A DNA stretch of 64,000 nt from Bradyrhizobium sp. CCBAU 53351 (GTDB lineage: Bacteria; Pseudomonadota; Alphaproteobacteria; Rhizobiales; Xanthobacteraceae). The notes under the pieces were generated by a model that saw only the letters and a program-made list of their open reading frames with translations, was not told the DNA's origin and searched no databases. Shown here in pieces: positions 6,369 to 61,525 of this stretch. The stretch is from positions 4,181,501 through 4,245,500 of the forward strand of contig NZ_CP030059.1 in assembly GCF_015291745.1 (NCBI RefSeq), written 5' to 3'. How positions within the stretch are numbered: position 1 is the first letter of the stretch; each line of letters begins with the position of its first letter. The translations under genes were made by a program, and so were the position numbers.

Positions 6369-6608
6369 ATGGCTGAAGCTGGTGCACGCCGTCCGTTTTT
6401 CCGTCGTCGCAAGAGCTGCCCGTTCACGGGCGCCAACGCTCCGAAGATCGACTACAAGGACTCCAAGCTGCTGATGCGTTACGTCTCCGAGCGCGGCAAG
6501 ATCGTGCCGAGCCGCATCACCGCGGTGTCCGCGAAGAAGCAGCGTGAGCTCGCCCGCGCCATCAAGCGCGCGCGGTTCCTGGGCCTGCTGCCCTACGTCA
6601 TTCGTTAA
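6369..6608 (+). CDS. rpsR: 30S ribosomal protein bS18
   Basis: 79 residues, beginning with a basic N-terminus and the family segment RRKSCPFTG. It then has the rRNA-binding core with [24 protein letters not shown] and ends in [12 protein letters not shown]. It binds next to bS6 on the platform of the small subunit. Only 5 bases separate it from rpsF, so the two are co-transcribed, as in almost all bacteria. Confidence 0.98.
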
Positions 6609-56867: not shown

Positions 56868-57533
56868 TCAATAGTTGATCTCCATCCGCAGTCCGCGCGG
56901 ATCGATCTCCTCGCCGCCGACACGCTGCGTGCTGTCGCGCGCTGCGACCGCACAGCCACAGGCGTCGATGAGATCGTCACGGCCGATGCCGGTGCTGTGA
57001 CGAAGCGTCAGCCATCTCTCGATCTTGGTGAAGCCGCGGTCTTCCAGCAGCGCATTGCGCTGCTGGCGGCCCCGCGGCGAGGTCTTCGGTTCAAGCCGCA
57101 CTCGCCCCGCCAGATTCCAGAAGATCAATTCCGGATGCGCTTCGCCGATCGTTGCCTGCCGCGCCGGCGTCATGATGTCGTCGACCTCCCTGATCTTGTC
57201 CCGGATATTCCAGAGCTGCGCCGACACGCCTCTGCCCTTGCCCTCGTGCGTCCAATAGTGGCGATTGGCCGCGGCCATGTCGGGGAATGTCCAGAGGTCG
57301 CGGCGCGCACCGAGAAACACCGCTGAACCAATCAGTTCGCGGGCGCGCAGATCGCAAGCGCGATAGCCGCTCGGATTCAATCCGATCGGCATGTCGATCA
57401 TCGCACGCGCATGCGGCAGCGCGAGCAGGCGCGTCAGGCCCGGCGAATAATCGAAGCCATGATCGCCGCGCTCGTCGATCCAGGCTGCGACCCAGCCGAA
57501 GCGAAATCCGTCGAGGCCGAGATAGTTCGGCAC
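56868..57533 (-). CDS. DUF429 protein
   Basis: 221 residues with the family segments GLDGFRFGWVAAWID, MIDMPIGL, and HPELIFWNLAG. DUF429 proteins have an RNase H-like fold and are predicted nucleases, but no activity is proven. Its location next to an RNA-repair locus is suggestive only. Confidence 0.82.
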   Translation of the reverse strand: MPNYLGLDGFRFGWVAAWIDERGDHGFDYSPGLTRLLALPHARAMIDMPIGLNPSGYRACDLRARELIGSAVFLGARRDLWTFPDMAAANRHYWTHEGKGRGVSAQLWNIRDKIREVDDIMTPARQATIGEAHPELIFWNLAGRVRLEPKTSPRGRQQRNALLEDRGFTKIERWLTLRHSTGIGRDDLIDACGCAVAARDSTQRVGGEEIDPRGLRMEINY

Positions 57534-57573
57534 GTCATGCGTCCGTCATTTTCAATTTCACCGCGCGCGTCGC

Positions 57574-57602
57574 TTGACATCCGCAAGTTGCGGGCGTATG
57601 TC
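57574..57602 (+). promoter_or_regulatory. sigma-70-type promoter of a small transcription unit
   Basis: TTGACA (57574-57579), 17-base spacer, TATGTC (57597-57602). The -35 is perfect; the -10 keeps the first TAT only. It reads rightward towards the small unit and terminator that follow. Confidence 0.5.
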
Positions 57603-57608
57603 CCGCGC

Positions 57609-57805
57609 CCTCGCAAGCACTTCCGTTTGCGACAGACACCATGAACCGAGCGATGCTGAACCGCTACGAAAGAATTGTCCGCATGCCGAATAGCCCAAAG
57701 CTGTTCGACCTCGCATGCCCGGCTCATGGGAGCGAACTTGCCTGACCGCAAGATCGACAGTCCACTTCTGGACCCTCCCGAGCCTGCCGCTCCGGAGGGT
57801 TTTTT
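57609..57805 (+). ncRNA. candidate small RNA or 34-codon gene with strong terminator
   Basis: Transcription from the promoter above would start near 57609 and stop at the terminator ending at 57805, giving an RNA of about 197 bases. It contains an open frame 57641-57745 (MNRAMLNRYERIV..., 34 codons) without a Shine-Dalgarno. Either a regulatory RNA or a small protein. Function unknown. It lies between DUF429 and the Y RNA array, on the same strand as that array. Confidence 0.45.
57773..57805 (+). terminator. strong intrinsic terminator
   Basis: CCCTCC (57773-57778) pairs with GGAGGG (57794-57799), extended by GAG/CTC after one mismatch, then six T bases. No annotated rightward gene precedes it except the small unit above. 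Confidence 0.85.
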
Positions 57806-58046
57806 GTTGCCCGCCGCGCGGCCCGATCGAACATCCCGGCAATCGCCGGAACGAGAGACCCGGATCTCGGGGCTAGCGCTGAGAACGCGCGTGCCCAAGC
57901 GCGCGGGGCCTGCCGGAGGGAACGAGGCGATGAGCCGGACACCGATGGCAGAGCGAACCCGTAGGGTTCGCAACATGCGGCGCGTCGACAGCGCCGCGAT
58001 AGAATTTTCTTAAGATTGGTTTGCCGCTGTCATCGCGGCTCAAACG

Positions 58047-58231
58047 ACGCTGGTGGTGAAGATGTCGGATACTTCTTCCACACGGCACAGCGGGCATGCC
58101 TCCCGCCTTTGACGCACGCACCGGGATGCGGCCTCGGAAAAGGTTCGCACGCGGCCCGGCGCAGGATCCGTCCGTAAGGACGGCGACTGTGTTGTCGTCA
58201 CTGAAAGCCGATATCGCCCGTTCCCCAGCGT
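58047..58231 (+). ncRNA. Y RNA-like element, copy 1 (divergent)
   Basis: Terminal stem ACGCTGG / CCAGCGT (58047-58053 with 58225-58231). Then TGGTGAAG and an 8-bp stem GATGTCGG / CCGATATC with one wobble. On the 3' side GCCCGTTCC precedes the closing strand. An internal hairpin CCGTCC-GTAA-GGACGG (58168-58183) is followed by a CGAC/GTCG arm, the acceptor-mimic and D-arm positions. No clear T-arm is present, so this copy has diverged most. It is the longest (185 bases). Confidence 0.7.
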
Positions 58232-58263
58232 ACCCATCAACGACCGATGCGACAGCATCGGCC

Positions 58264-58388
58264 TGGCGGTGGTGAAGATGCCTGTTACTTCGTGGTAAAG
58301 GCGCGAAAGCGCCGAGCAGGTTCGAGCCCTGCACGCCGAAAGGCGGTTCGCCCGGAAGGGCAGCAACAGCATCGATCGTTCCCCGCCA
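58264..58388 (+). ncRNA. Y RNA-like element, copy 2
   Basis: 125 bases. Terminal stem TGGCGG / CCGCCA (58264-58269 with 58383-58388). TGGTGAA, then GATG, bulged C, CTGTT pairing with AACAG-CATC at 58365-58373. Within: a hairpin GGCGC-GAAA-GCGCC (58300-58313) in the variable-arm position. The T-arm is GCAGG-TTCGAGC-CCTGC (58316-58332). The acceptor mimic is CGCC-GAAA-GGCG (58334-58345). The D-arm-like hairpin is GCCC-GGAA-GGGC (58350-58361). Confidence 0.85.
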
Positions 58389-58395
58389 ACCCCAT

Positions 58396-58555
58396 CACGA
58401 TCCGTGGTGAAGATGTCTGTTACTTCGCCTGCCACGCGAGAGGTCGCGGGTTCGAATCCCGCCCGGTGTTCCATGCACCGGTAGCTCAGAGGATAGAGCG
58501 CTTTCCGGCAAGCTCACGCTTGCCGGGTCACAGCATCGCCCGTTCCCGGATCGTG
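58396..58555 (+). ncRNA. Y RNA-like element, copy 3 (best tRNA mimic)
   Basis: 160 bases. Terminal stem CACGATCCG / CGGATCGTG, 9 bp perfect (58396-58404 with 58547-58555). GATG-T-CTGT pairs with ACAG-CATC. The T-arm is GCGGG-TTCGAAT-CCCGC (58446-58462). The acceptor stem CCGGTG/CACCGG is closed by a 7-base loop (58463-58481). TA is followed by the D-arm GCTC-AGAGGATA-GAGC (58484-58499). A 9-bp hairpin CCGGCAAGC-TCAC-GCTTGCCGG (58505-58526) forms an extra arm. Every tRNA elbow signature base is kept while the acceptor ends are joined. Confidence 0.9.
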
Positions 58556-58569
58556 TCCTCTCAACCACC

Positions 58570-58704
58570 GCCGGTGGTGAAGGGCGCTGTTATTTCGTGA
58601 ATCACACTGTCGAAGGTTCGACTCCTTCCGGACGAAAGTCCGTAGCTCAGCGGTAGAGCATGTGGAGCCCCTCGCGGGCAGGACAGCCTCGCTTGTTCCC
58701 CGGC
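58570..58704 (+). ncRNA. Y RNA-like element, copy 4
   Basis: 135 bases, ending 40 bases before the rsr start. Terminal stem GCCGG / CCGGC (58570-58574 with 58700-58704). The T-arm is GAAGG-TTCGACT-CCTTC (58612-58628). The acceptor mimic is CGGAC-GAAA-GTCCG (58629-58642). Then TA and the D-arm GCTC-AGCGGTA-GAGC (58645-58659). A GCCC/GGGC hairpin (58667-58679) follows. The inner stem is weaker than in copies 2 and 3. Confidence 0.88.
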
Positions 58705-58744
58705 ACCCGCTTCCATGTCCCCATCAACCCAAGAGGAGGCCGTC

Positions 58745-60070
58745 ATGGTCAGGCTCAACAAGATCGTTCGCGCCTTCACGCGGGAGGGCGCACGCGCAAT
58801 CCGCTTCACGCCCGAGATGGAGCTGAAGCGCGCGCTGATGAACTGCCTCCTGTGGGAGGACCAGTTCTACGAGGACGGCGTCGCGATCGCCGACCGCATC
58901 AAGACCCTGGTGCCCAAGGTCGCGCCTGCGCGCGTCGCCCAGCTCGCGATCGAGGCGCGCGAGGTGATGAAGCTGCGGCATGCGCCGCTGCTCGTCATCC
59001 GCGAGATGGCGCGCAGCGAAAAGCACCGTGCTCTCGTGGCCGACACGCTCGCTCAGGTGATCCAGCGGCCCGACGAGATGACGGAGCTGCTCGCGATCTA
59101 CTGGGCGGATGCGCTGGGGCCGATGCAGCAGCGCAAGCGTCAGCCGGTCTCCGCACAGGTCAAGAAGGGTCTTGCCCGCGCGCTGACCAAGTTCGACGCC
59201 TACCAGCTCGCCAAGTGGGACCGCGACGGCGCGGTGCGGATCAGGGACGTGCTGTTCCTGGTGCACGCCAAGCCGAAGGACGCCGAGCAGGCAAAGGTCT
59301 GGAAGCAGCTCGTCGACGGCGAGCTCGCCTCCCCCGACACCTGGGAGGTCTCGCTCTCGGCCGGCAAGAGCAAGCGCGAGACCTTCGAGCGGCTGATCGA
59401 CGAGCGAAAGCTCGGCGGCCTGGCGCTGCTGCGCAATCTGCGGCTGATGCAGACGGCGCAGGTCCCGCGCGAGACCATCGCAGGCGCGATCGAGGCGATG
59501 CGGACGGATCGTATCCTTCCCTATCGCTTCATCACGGCGGCGCGCTATGCGCCGGACTTCGAGCCCGAGCTCGAGGCTGCGATGCTCAAGTCGGTCAAGG
59601 ACCATGTGCGGCTGCCCGGCCGGACGCGGCTCCTGATCGACGTGTCGGGCTCGATGTTCGCGACCCTCTCCGCGCAGTCGGAAATGACGCGCGCGGAGGC
59701 GGCGTGCGGTCTTGCGATCCTCGCCCGCGAGATCTGCGACGAGGTCGAGATCTTCACCTTCAGCAATGATGTCGTGAAGGTCCCGCCCCGCCGCGGCTTC
59801 GCGCTGCGGGACGCGATCATCAACTCGCAGTCCCACGGCGGGACCTATCTCGGCAAGGCCGTGACGGAGATCGACCGCAAGGGCGATCGCCTCATCGTCT
59901 TCACCGACGAGCAGAGTCACGACCGGGTGCCGGAGCCCAAGGCGCGCGGCACCATCGTGAACGTGGCCTCGTATCAGCACGGTGTCGGTCACGGCGCCTG
60001 GACGCGCGTCAACGGCTTCTCCGAGGCCGTGGTCGCGTGGATCGCAGCGTCGGAGACGGCGTTGCACTGA
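58745..60070 (+). CDS. rsr: Ro60/TROVE protein Rsr
   Basis: 441-residue orthologue of the Ro autoantigen. The N-terminal TROVE region (about residues 15-285) forms a HEAT-repeat ring that binds misfolded RNA ends and Y RNA. The C-terminal VWA domain (about 294-440) keeps an intact MIDAS: DVSGS at 299-303, Thr367 in SHGGTYLG and Asp388 in FTDEQ. AGAGGAGG before the ATG at 58745 sets the start. Bacterial Rsr works with Y RNAs and the exonuclease PNPase in RNA degradation. Here it is preceded by four Y RNA-like copies and followed by rtcB. Confidence 0.93.
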   Translation: MVRLNKIVRAFTREGARAIRFTPEMELKRALMNCLLWEDQFYEDGVAIADRIKTLVPKVAPARVAQLAIEAREVMKLRHAPLLVIREMARSEKHRALVADTLAQVIQRPDEMTELLAIYWADALGPMQQRKRQPVSAQVKKGLARALTKFDAYQLAKWDRDGAVRIRDVLFLVHAKPKDAEQAKVWKQLVDGELASPDTWEVSLSAGKSKRETFERLIDERKLGGLALLRNLRLMQTAQVPRETIAGAIEAMRTDRILPYRFITAARYAPDFEPELEAAMLKSVKDHVRLPGRTRLLIDVSGSMFATLSAQSEMTRAEAACGLAILAREICDEVEIFTFSNDVVKVPPRRGFALRDAIINSQSHGGTYLGKAVTEIDRKGDRLIVFTDEQSHDRVPEPKARGTIVNVASYQHGVGHGAWTRVNGFSEAVVAWIAASETALH

Positions 60071-60178
60071 TGCGCGACGACAACGACCCCGGACGCAGGA
60101 TGCTGCGCCCGGTGTCGGCAAATTCTCTGAAATGATTTGCCCGCACCTTCTATAGTGCGCGCGGAATGACAAGGACCT

Positions 60179-61525
60179 ATGACCATGCGACGACCCGATC
60201 CCTACATGGAACGCGCCCGCGAGCTCTGCCTCGCCGCCGGTGTCGATCCCGACTCGCGCGTCGGCGAAGGACGCGGCCAGCCGGCCTGGTGCCTGTACAA
60301 GGATGCCGCGCGCAAGGAACATCTGGCCCGCGAGGCCAATGCGACCGCGAGCTCGATCGCCGAGTTCCGGATGCAGGACGCCCGCTTCCAGAATGCGCCG
60401 CTGAAGGTGTTCGGCCCGCACGAGGACGCGACGATCGCCCAGATGCGCAACTGCATGGCGGTCGGCAACGTCGTGTCCGGCGTGATCTGCGCCGACGGCC
60501 ATCTCGGTTACGCCCAGCCGGTCGGCGGGGTCATCGCCTATGAGAAGCAGATCAGCATCTCCGGCGTCGGCTTCGACATCGGCTGCGGCAACATGGCGGC
60601 AAAGCTCGACACGCGCTTCGACGACATCGCGGGCCGCGTCCCCACGATCATCCGCGACGTCGCCAAGACGATCTCGTTCGGCGTCGGCCGGGCCAATGCC
60701 GAGCGGGCCGAGCACGACCTGTTCGACGACGGCGATGCCTGGCGCGAGAGCGACATGGAGGACTACCGCAAGAAAGCGGTGAGCCAGCTCGGCACGGTCG
60801 GATCGGGCAACCATTATGTCGACCTCATGCGCGACGAGGAGGGCTTCGTCTGGATCGGCGTCCACTTCGGAAGCCGCGGTCTCGGGCACACTTCCGCGAC
60901 GCGCTACCTCAAGGCCGCCGGCGGCAAGGACGGCATGAACGTTCCGCCCGCCGTGGTCGACGAGGACTCAGAGCTCGGCCGCCGCTACATTGCGGCGATG
61001 CAGCTCGCCGGGCGTTATGCCTATGCGGGCCGCGAGTGGGTCGTCGAGCGCGTCCGCCAGATCATCGGCGGCTGCGTGACCGAGAGCGTGCACAACCACC
61101 ACAATTACGCCTGGCGTGAGACCCACGACGGGCGCGATCTGTGGGTGGTGCGCAAGGGCGCGACGCCGGCGTTTCCCGGCCAGAAGGGATTCGTTGGCGG
61201 CTCGATGGGCGACGACGCCGTCATCCTCGAAGGCGTCGACAGCCCGGACGCCAAGGCCTCGCTCTATTCGACCGTGCATGGCGCCGGCCGCCTGTTCGGA
61301 CGACGGGAGGCGAAGCGGCGCTTCTCGCGCGAGCAGATGGGCCAGTGGCTCAACGAGCGCGGCGTGACCTTGATCGGCGCCGACCTCGACGAAAGCCCGA
61401 TGGCCTATCGCCGCCTGCCGGACGTGCTGGCGCAGCACGCCGGCACCGTGCGCGTGCTGCACACGCTGCGGCCGTTCGCCGTCGCCATGGCCGGTGAAGG
61501 TGAGTTCGATCCGTGGAAGGACTGA
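60179..61525 (+). CDS. rtcB: RNA 3'-phosphate ligase RtcB
   Basis: 448-residue GTP- and Mn-dependent ligase that seals RNA 2',3'-cyclic or 3'-phosphate ends to 5'-OH ends. Metal ligands are seen as Asp133 and Cys136 (FDIGCG), His212 (GSGNHYVDL), His229 (VHFGSRGLGH) and the His305-308 cluster (HNHHN). The guanylated histidine is His367 in VHGAGR. All are present, so it should be active. It follows rsr by 108 bases on the same strand. rtcA (cyclase) and rtcR (activator) are not nearby. Confidence 0.95.
   Translation: MTMRRPDPYMERARELCLAAGVDPDSRVGEGRGQPAWCLYKDAARKEHLAREANATASSIAEFRMQDARFQNAPLKVFGPHEDATIAQMRNCMAVGNVVSGVICADGHLGYAQPVGGVIAYEKQISISGVGFDIGCGNMAAKLDTRFDDIAGRVPTIIRDVAKTISFGVGRANAERAEHDLFDDGDAWRESDMEDYRKKAVSQLGTVGSGNHYVDLMRDEEGFVWIGVHFGSRGLGHTSATRYLKAAGGKDGMNVPPAVVDEDSELGRRYIAAMQLAGRYAYAGREWVVERVRQIIGGCVTESVHNHHNYAWRETHDGRDLWVVRKGATPAFPGQKGFVGGSMGDDAVILEGVDSPDAKASLYSTVHGAGRLFGRREAKRRFSREQMGQWLNERGVTLIGADLDESPMAYRRLPDVLAQHAGTVRVLHTLRPFAVAMAGEGEFDPWKD

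Follow-up and report, generated by a model that had tools for sequence, protein, structure and literature searches.

The window analyzed here, a stretch of 64,000 nt from Bradyrhizobium sp. CCBAU 53351, contains four Y RNA-like elements (Y1–Y4) in tandem, followed by a gene for a Ro60 ortholog (rsr) and a gene for the RNA ligase RtcB. The first-pass annotation of this region recognized the Y array, and this part stands, but it overlooked what lies upstream of the array, namely a predicted leader peptide with an attenuator and a structured RNA element, which we denote U. The features of the locus are as follows:

57574..57602, + strand: presumed operon promoter, TTGACA, 17 nt, TATGTC (motif in 55 of 56 loci, from the alignment)
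57653..57745, + strand: leader ORF, 30 codons plus TGA (ATG frame in 55 of 56 loci)
57721..57732, + strand: 5' strand of the predicted antiterminator, GGCUC(AU)GGGAG (complementarity to the 5' arm of the terminator)
57734..57755, + strand: hairpin a (86.3% of cells paired)
57760..57773, + strand: hairpin b, within the antiterminator fold (fold of the window; 78.3% of cells paired)
57773..57805, + strand: predicted intrinsic terminator, CCCTCCCGAGCC .. GCTCCGGAGGG TTTTTT (98.5% of cells paired, 23 loci)
57836..57998, + strand: U RNA, a structured element without an Rfam match (96.1% paired)
58047..58230, + strand: Y1, Y RNA-like (model R1, 35.8 bits; alignments and fold)
58262..58389, + strand: Y2, Y RNA-like (model R1, 58.6 bits)
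58395..58555, + strand: Y3, with a full permuted tRNA-like module (YrlA, 42.3 bits; pair counts)
58569..58705, + strand: Y4, with a full permuted tRNA-like module (YrlA, 36.5 bits; pair counts; helix)
58745..60070, + strand: rsr, Ro60 ortholog with TROVE and vWA domains (PF05731; fold ranking)
60179..61525, + strand: rtcB, RNA ligase (PF01139, 227.5 bits)

The product of rsr matches PF05731 at 49.5 bits (cut-off 23), and the gene lies directly downstream of Y4 and is followed by rtcB, so that the first-pass placement of the array immediately before a Ro60 gene was correct. The start of rsr is most probably at 58745, not at 58715, with AAGAGGAGG at 58731–58739. The vWA models scored below their own cut-offs (23.2 vs 27.7 bits and 22.6 vs 27 bits), and the DxSxS motif of the vWA domain is present as DVSGS at residues 299–303 of Rsr. 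By sequence, Rsr matches the TROVE protein 9l5y (E 1.1e-42) and the Deinococcus Rsr (E 4.5e-8) in the PDB and, by fold, the 13 best-ranked PDB chains are all Ro60/TROVE. The ring geometry of the predicted Rsr is poor (TM 0.37–0.47).

Each of the four elements carries GTGGTGAAG on its 5' side (at 58053, 58269, 58404 and 58574) and GTTCCC on its 3' side (at 58220, 58378, 58542 and 58695); these common motifs, from which four copies had been proposed in the first pass, indeed lie inside all of the elements. For a quantitative comparison, a covariance model, R1, was built from alignment A2, a chosen subset of 19 third- and last-element sequences from the window and related rsr loci, with first and second elements excluded from training. 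R1 matched the untrained Y2 at 58.6 bits (E 2.6e-14) and the untrained Y1 at 35.8 bits (E 3.4e-8), the E-values being rough, and the next-best match within the window reached only 11.8 bits. Across the 8.34-Mb genome, Y1–Y4 occupied the top four ranks, and the best non-Y match, at 30.9 bits, covered two adjacent tRNA genes (953340–953522). Because this tRNA look-alike is only 5 bits lower, Y1 stands only modestly above the background by score alone. The Rfam model of YrlA (RF02553) matched Y3 at 42.3 bits and Y4 at 36.5 bits, both below the gathering score of 69, and gave no match to Y1 or Y2 at E ≤ 1.

The structure written for A2 comprises an outer helix with a bulged U, a second helix, a T-arm, an acceptor and a D-arm. 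In this structure, 99.0% of the cells are paired, compared to 35–54% when the partners are slid by 1–3 columns, and 69 cells are doubly changed, compared to 28.5 in shuffles. Of the five measures, two were not clearly above the shuffled values (9 vs 7.8 pairs with double changes and 18 vs 18.9 pair types). Because two types of element are combined in A2, and many of the changes separate one type from the other, the number of independent changes is lower than the cell counts. Taken together, the YrlA matches, the pair counts and the R1 matches to untrained elements support the Y RNA-like identity that had been assigned to these elements, and the alignments and covariance-model scores support a diverged four-copy array. 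Judged from their sequences, the four elements are very probably genuine paralogous bacterial Y RNAs.

All four elements share a basal stem of 5–9 bp with one bulged U, a GG/CC, an internal loop and a second helix. Helix 1, which contains the bulged U, is paired in 99.2% of the cells of the 19 Y3/Y4-type sequences; the vertebrate Ro60 site is described as having a bulged cytidine (PMC4726728). In the alignment, the ends are near-constant across the Y elements and the middles differ. Y3 contains a T-arm, an acceptor and a D-arm in permuted order, and its fused acceptor end, CCGGTGTTCCATGCACCGG, resembles a tRNA in which the CCA end is joined to the 5' end. Y4 carries the same permuted arms plus a 5-bp helix at the position of the anticodon stem. 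The arms could be parsed by pattern in 120 of 291 Y sequences, and all five anticodon-stem-like pairs were present in 30 of these 120 sequences, compared to 4.0 with shuffled partners; Y3 of the window is not among the 30. Y2 has a T-arm and an acceptor-like hairpin, without a D-arm in this genome, that is, a partial tRNA-like module, and Y1 has a T-arm-like hairpin only, plus a long non-tRNA stem. As regards a single parent tRNA for the Y3 and Y4 modules, several of the 31 host tRNAs compared (from 30 loci, out of 46 tRNA matches in the genome) were tied, and none is claimed.

The array could alternatively be a set of tRNA genes that have decayed or been rearranged: T-arm and D-arm motifs occur in it, ARAGORN predicts three 'tRNAs' in this region, and adjacent real tRNA genes score up to 30.9 bits with the model. 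However, the order in Y3 and Y4 is T-arm, acceptor, D-arm and not the linear order of acceptor, D, anticodon, T and acceptor, the acceptor strands co-change across a short loop, and the same Ro-type ends frame each copy, with the order of the four copies kept in 17 of 17 loci. Derelict tRNA genes are thus an extremely improbable explanation of the array, and Y RNAs are by far the better one.

The second element occurs in several sizes. Among 42 labelled loci (two of the 42 labels were set by hand), 15 have a full, 19 a mid-sized, 2 a short and 6 a mini Y2; the second element of two loci, L058 and L119, was missed by the covariance model. On a quickly built and weak rsr tree, in which 12 of the 40 inner branches are well supported, the length class changed at least 13 times, compared to 18.9 changes with shuffled labels. 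In the 37 four-match loci, the 5' motif of Y2 is intact in all 37 and the 3' motif in 33. Since the upper modules were shortened many times and the Ro-type ends were kept, the species comparison amounts to a natural deletion series. Fixed ends with varying modules are the pattern that a Ro60-bound scaffold would show, and the upper modules may confer partner specificity. If several Y RNAs share a ring, or several partners are served, this would predict constant Ro-type ends combined with different, repeatedly shortened modules.

To assess the conservation of the array, rsr was searched for in 100 relatives. The protein was detected in 20 of them, that is, 17 same-genus genomes with a (nearly) full gene, including the window, two same-genus genomes in which the match is distant or fragmentary, and one genome of another family. 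Four Y elements in the same order are present at all 17 (nearly) full same-genus loci when one motif base is relaxed, and at 15 of the 17 with the exact motif GGTGAAG; L007 and L008 contain additional motif matches, which were not counted. The covariance-model search of other Bradyrhizobium genomes, which had been proposed as a check in the first pass, gave a concordant result: at E ≤ 0.01, four matches were found in 36 of 42 named Bradyrhizobium-group rsr loci, three in 5 and two in 1 (this set overlaps with the 17 loci). In the five photosynthetic-type Bradyrhizobium loci (L100–L104), which were counted apart, there were four matches in 3 loci and three matches in 2. Multi-element Y arrays are not special to Bradyrhizobium. 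Elsewhere, 1–5 elements per locus were found in 16 other alphaproteobacterial loci, 0–7 in 17 mostly acidobacterial loci and 0–5 in 80 viral-contig loci, the numbers for distant loci being upper estimates because matches of 20–31 bits fall in the range of tRNA look-alikes.

Several individual loci deviate in their own ways. The rsr genes of three genomes (G017, G019 and G047; loci L015, L021 and L014) have an internal stop or break, with the Y arrays still present. An Acidobacteriaceae bin (L128, 367–2217) has seven Y-model matches before rsr, two of them below 31 bits. The rsr leader of a genome from another family of the order (L022, 1–901) looks, by eye, like a mixture of tRNA genes together with two Y-like matches. 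In L108 (1472–2719), an ORF that by eye resembles an ammonium transporter lies between the U/Y elements and a Y element adjoining rsr.

The first-pass annotation had also noted that no terminators separate the copies, and a consensus scan for terminators from 57530 to 60200 agrees with this; the only site lies inside the 5' part of Y4, with 1.5 sites expected by chance. A consensus scan for sigma-70 sites on the + strand found none before Y1. Neither the presumed promoter at 57574 nor the predicted terminator at 57773 was listed by the consensus scan, and both come from the alignment, in which the promoter motif TTGAC-N-GCGTA is conserved in 55 of 56 loci, including other Alphaproteobacteria. 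The leader, U, Y1–Y4, rsr and rtcB probably form one operon that begins at 57574. Y1–Y4 would then be transcribed together with rsr and rtcB from this single promoter and would be cut out of the common transcript; such processing would fit the tight packing of the elements and the single conserved promoter far upstream. Within the 109-base gap between rsr and rtcB, the consensus scan found a sigma-70-like site with 9 of 12 matches (60127–60156), which could be a second start for rtcB that bypasses the attenuator.

Since the elements are located toward the 5' end of the presumed transcript and are not separated by any clear terminator, they could instead serve the rsr mRNA only as a structured leader with a regulatory function, without ever being released as Y RNAs. 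However, the ends of the elements match the Ro-type basal stem, the modules display the tRNA mimicry that is described as a hallmark of known Y RNAs (PMC8394870), and Y elements are found behind another ORF in L108 and between rsr and rtcB on a Rhizobium plasmid (L262). A purely regulatory mRNA leader is therefore improbable compared to Y RNAs that are released from the transcript.

Upstream of U, 55 of 56 loci have an ATG frame of 29–31 codons, counted from the inner ATG, and in 49 of these 55 the frame has exactly 30 codons. The search covered ATG frames of 24–45 codons that end 15–80 bases upstream of the terminator and, for ORFs with several possible starts, the start giving 29–31 codons was taken; most loci have an additional in-frame ATG four codons earlier, which in the window is at 57641. 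Among the 48 distinct 30-codon leader ORFs, the alternative frames contain stops in 21 and 36, respectively. Codons 2–18 are under hardly any amino-acid constraint (dS/dN roughly 1.2), as would suit a leader in which translation, not the product, matters. For the same reason, no stalling codon was identified in the predicted leader peptide.

The end of the ORF overlaps with the elements of a predicted attenuator. In the window, the stop codon (57743–57745) is in the loop of hairpin a, and in the other rows shown in the alignment it is in or next to this loop; 6 of the 8 pairs of hairpin a have changes on both sides. The terminator arm strand 57773–57784 can pair with either 57721–57732 or 57789–57799, resulting in mutually exclusive folds, and the 5' strand of the antiterminator lies inside the last codons of the ORF. 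When the leader of the window is folded up to the 5' arm of the terminator, it forms the antiterminator enclosing hairpins a and b, and when the 3' arm is added, the minimum switches to the terminator. The antiterminator duplex has a mean of −18.1 kcal/mol, compared to −10.9 kcal/mol in shuffles, and the complementarity has p ≤ 0.05 against shuffles in 48 of 55 loci, which are related to each other. A column-wise count found zero pairs with both-side changes in the antiterminator helix; as the helix is mostly invariant, such counts add no covariation for it, and the evidence for it, from related sequences, consists of complementarity that is retained, registers that are shifted and a single variant, L115, with compensatory changes. 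For the leader structure as a whole, aligned in A9 (23 of 24 prepared rows), 88.4% of the cells are paired, compared to 38.9% after a slide of +2, and the +2-slid partners equal the structure in the numbers of doubly changed pairs (7) and cells (17). Because this control equals the structure in double changes, we rate ribosome-set attenuation slightly lower, and consider a leader-peptide attenuator that is set by the position of the ribosome to be moderately probable.

In such an attenuator, ribosomes finishing the 30-codon ORF would cover the antiterminator strand, and the terminator would form. When translation is stalled or fails, the antiterminator would form instead, and U, Y1–Y4, rsr and rtcB would be made. 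The operon would thus be turned on by translation failure, which could result, for example, from damaged tRNAs.

Since an intrinsic terminator is present after the ORF and small independent genes exist, the ORF could alternatively constitute a small gene in its own right that ends at this terminator, with U, the Y elements, rsr and rtcB expressed from another promoter behind it. However, inspection by eye revealed no conserved promoter in the variable sequence that separates the terminator from U, the complementarity of the antiterminator is conserved, the leader is located directly before rtcB even where the elements in between are absent, and there is little amino-acid constraint in the ORF; an independent gene is thus unlikely. 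Only slightly less unlikely is a real attenuator that responds to an input other than the ribosome, such as a leader-binding protein or damaged tRNA. The conservation of hairpin a with double changes, and in part of hairpin b, is beyond the needs of the simplest ribosome model, and RNAs are the likely substrates of the operon, but the ORF with a stop near the loop of hairpin a recurs in 55 of 56 loci, which argues for the ribosome as the input.

Ribosome-mediated attenuators of the trp type consist of a leader ORF and alternative antiterminator and terminator structures. The predicted attenuator resembles these in both components but differs in that no regulatory codon run was seen and that the stop codon is located in the loop of a hairpin that is enclosed by the antiterminator.

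Between the attenuator and Y1, the U element (57836–57998) is composed of invariant blocks and five helices. In 17 sequences (alignment A6; the parent alignment A5 has 22, and the five omitted include L097, whose last helix is disrupted), 96.1% of the cells are paired, compared to 35–49% with slid partners, and 15 of 30 pairs have changes on both sides, compared to 6.6 in shuffles. Rfam gave no match to U or the leader region at E ≤ 10. By DNA search, U was found in 41 of 146 genus genomes, one copy (G134) being partial, and all 17 genomes with a (nearly) full rsr are among these 41. In the survey of 100 relatives, U was absent from the same-genus genomes without a (nearly) full rsr. In a class-wide sample, rsr, U and the attenuator were each detected in the same 2 of 337 genomes, the filters for the U RNA model being stricter than those for the Rsr protein. 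The second of these genomes belongs to another family and encodes an Rsr that is 81% identical, with five Y matches beside U. When 163 rsr loci (80 from named genomes, 80 from viral contigs and 3 others) were searched with a profile, U was matched in 55, none of them acidobacterial or viral, and the U covariance model, applied to 90 sources including 52 of the 80 viral loci, yielded 11 matches, consisting of the window itself and ten loci from the same groups. U represents a structured RNA without an Rfam match that is tied to the Ro60-RtcB system.

Two further observations concern the neighborhood of U and of the attenuator. A hairpin, GTTTGCCGC..GCGGCTCAAAC, is located at 58019–58045, immediately 5' of Y1, and its pairing strands are similar in the Bradyrhizobium relatives shown. 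In the second genome of the class-wide sample, a further weak attenuator match (28.5 bits; G189:C14:261724-261818) lies downstream of rsr.

By DNA search, the leader was found in 46 of 146 genus genomes, that is, in the 41 genomes with U and in five without it. Altogether, eight leader copies lack the full U-Y-rsr block: those five, the copy in G134 and second copies in G044 and G117. At all eight of these rsr-less loci, rtcB follows directly behind the leader (446 of 446 residues aligned, 87–94% identity), and the leader ORF is intact in seven, the exception being L252. L252 and L253 retain the 3' end of rsr, and L253 additionally a piece of U; these remnants indicate that the block was lost and the leader was kept with rtcB. 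The same probably happened in L251, which retains a short piece of the rsr-rtcB spacer. The other five loci contain no remnant of the block and do not fix the direction of the change. The U-Y1–4-rsr block, located between the attenuator and rtcB, behaves like a cassette.

Bacterial Y RNAs are reported to bind Rsr by their basal stem and to tether PNPase, and YrlA to carry D, T and acceptor arms (PMC8394870). Like YrlA and the bacterial Y RNAs described in Salmonella, Deinococcus and Mycobacterium, the elements have a basal stem formed from both ends and a module of T-arm, acceptor and D-arm, and they are encoded beside rsr, in Salmonella also beside rtcB (PMC8394870, PMC7790460). Unlike for YrlA, there are four orthologous paralogs per locus upstream of rsr, two of which have full tRNA-like modules in this genome, and the elements of the window score below the cut-off of Rfam RF02553.

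The operon organization can likewise be compared to that of Salmonella, where the rsr-yrlBA-rtcBA operon is described as activated by RtcR, which binds tRNA fragments (PMC7790460). As in this RtcR- and sigma-54-dependent system (PMC7790460), Rsr, Y RNAs and RtcB would be encoded in one operon in Bradyrhizobium. In contrast to Salmonella, neither RtcR (PF06956) nor RtcA (PF01137) has a match genome-wide at E ≤ 0.001, and the predicted leader-peptide attenuator is found in the place of RtcR. The RtcR type is kept on the Rhizobium plasmid CP050516 (L262), which encodes RtcR (264 bits), rsr, a Y-like module and rtcB; the module is located between rsr and rtcB and matches at 54.6 bits, over the module part only. 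Behind this gene set, at 6378–6782 of L262, a barnase inhibitor gene is annotated, hinting at a link to an RNase toxin. Among the matches listed, eight Rhizobium/Shinella plasmid rows match solely positions 58441–58500 of the window, the tRNA-like module of Y3; in L262, which is one of these eight, the matching sequence is the Y-like module behind rsr.

Another system with a leader ORF is found in P. aeruginosa, for which a 13-residue leader, PA5471.1, has been proposed to attenuate the RtcB-like gene armZ, with impaired ribosomes as the inducing condition (PMC12057347, PMC3516279). Both systems combine a leader ORF with a proposed transcription attenuation before a gene of the RtcB family, but the ORF has 30 codons here compared to 13 residues, and the passages on armZ consulted do not mention Ro60 or Y RNAs (PMC12057347, PMC3516279). 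RtcB of the window reaches only 115 of the required 407 bits with NF007153, the model of PRK09588, a cluster described as named for PA5471 (PMC3516279). The proposed mechanism would thus work like a known one, but in another lineage and in combination with a Ro60-Y RNA cassette.

A prior description of the arrangement leader-U-Y1–4-rsr-rtcB was not found in the literature searched, with Chen et al. 2014 outside its scope. That study reportedly states that each species has one or more Y RNAs with a tRNA-like domain, and the multiplicity of Y RNAs itself therefore seems to be known.

The locus bears on the question of which function Ro60 and Y RNAs have in bacteria and why RNA ligases are encoded next to them. 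By analogy to Deinococcus and Salmonella, Rsr with alternative Y RNAs might provide several scaffolds for RNA decay or repair upon tRNA damage. We assign a probability of about 0.75 to the account as a whole, that is, paralogous Y RNAs, a common operon, a leader-peptide attenuator, a cassette and scaffolds, with sequence analysis as its basis. The attenuator suggests a testable inducing signal, namely translation failure, which, if true, would link Ro60 and RtcB to tRNA damage without RtcR. A more far-reaching interpretation, which we put forward tentatively and at somewhat less than even odds, is that of an RNA-centred damage-response operon, in which a ribosome-watching attenuator replaces RtcR and senses broken or missing tRNAs. 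It would release interchangeable tRNA-mimicking Y RNAs and the new RNA class U, so that, alongside RtcB, a single Ro60 ring could work with several partners in decay or repair, and the U-Y-Rsr cassette could be gained or lost as a unit at its place between sensor and rtcB. The finding makes the role of bacterial Ro60 testable in a soil and plant-symbiotic genus. In a phage collection, 83 of 50,697 records encode a relative of Rsr, and the 12 that were listed are annotated as hypothetical or RNA-binding.
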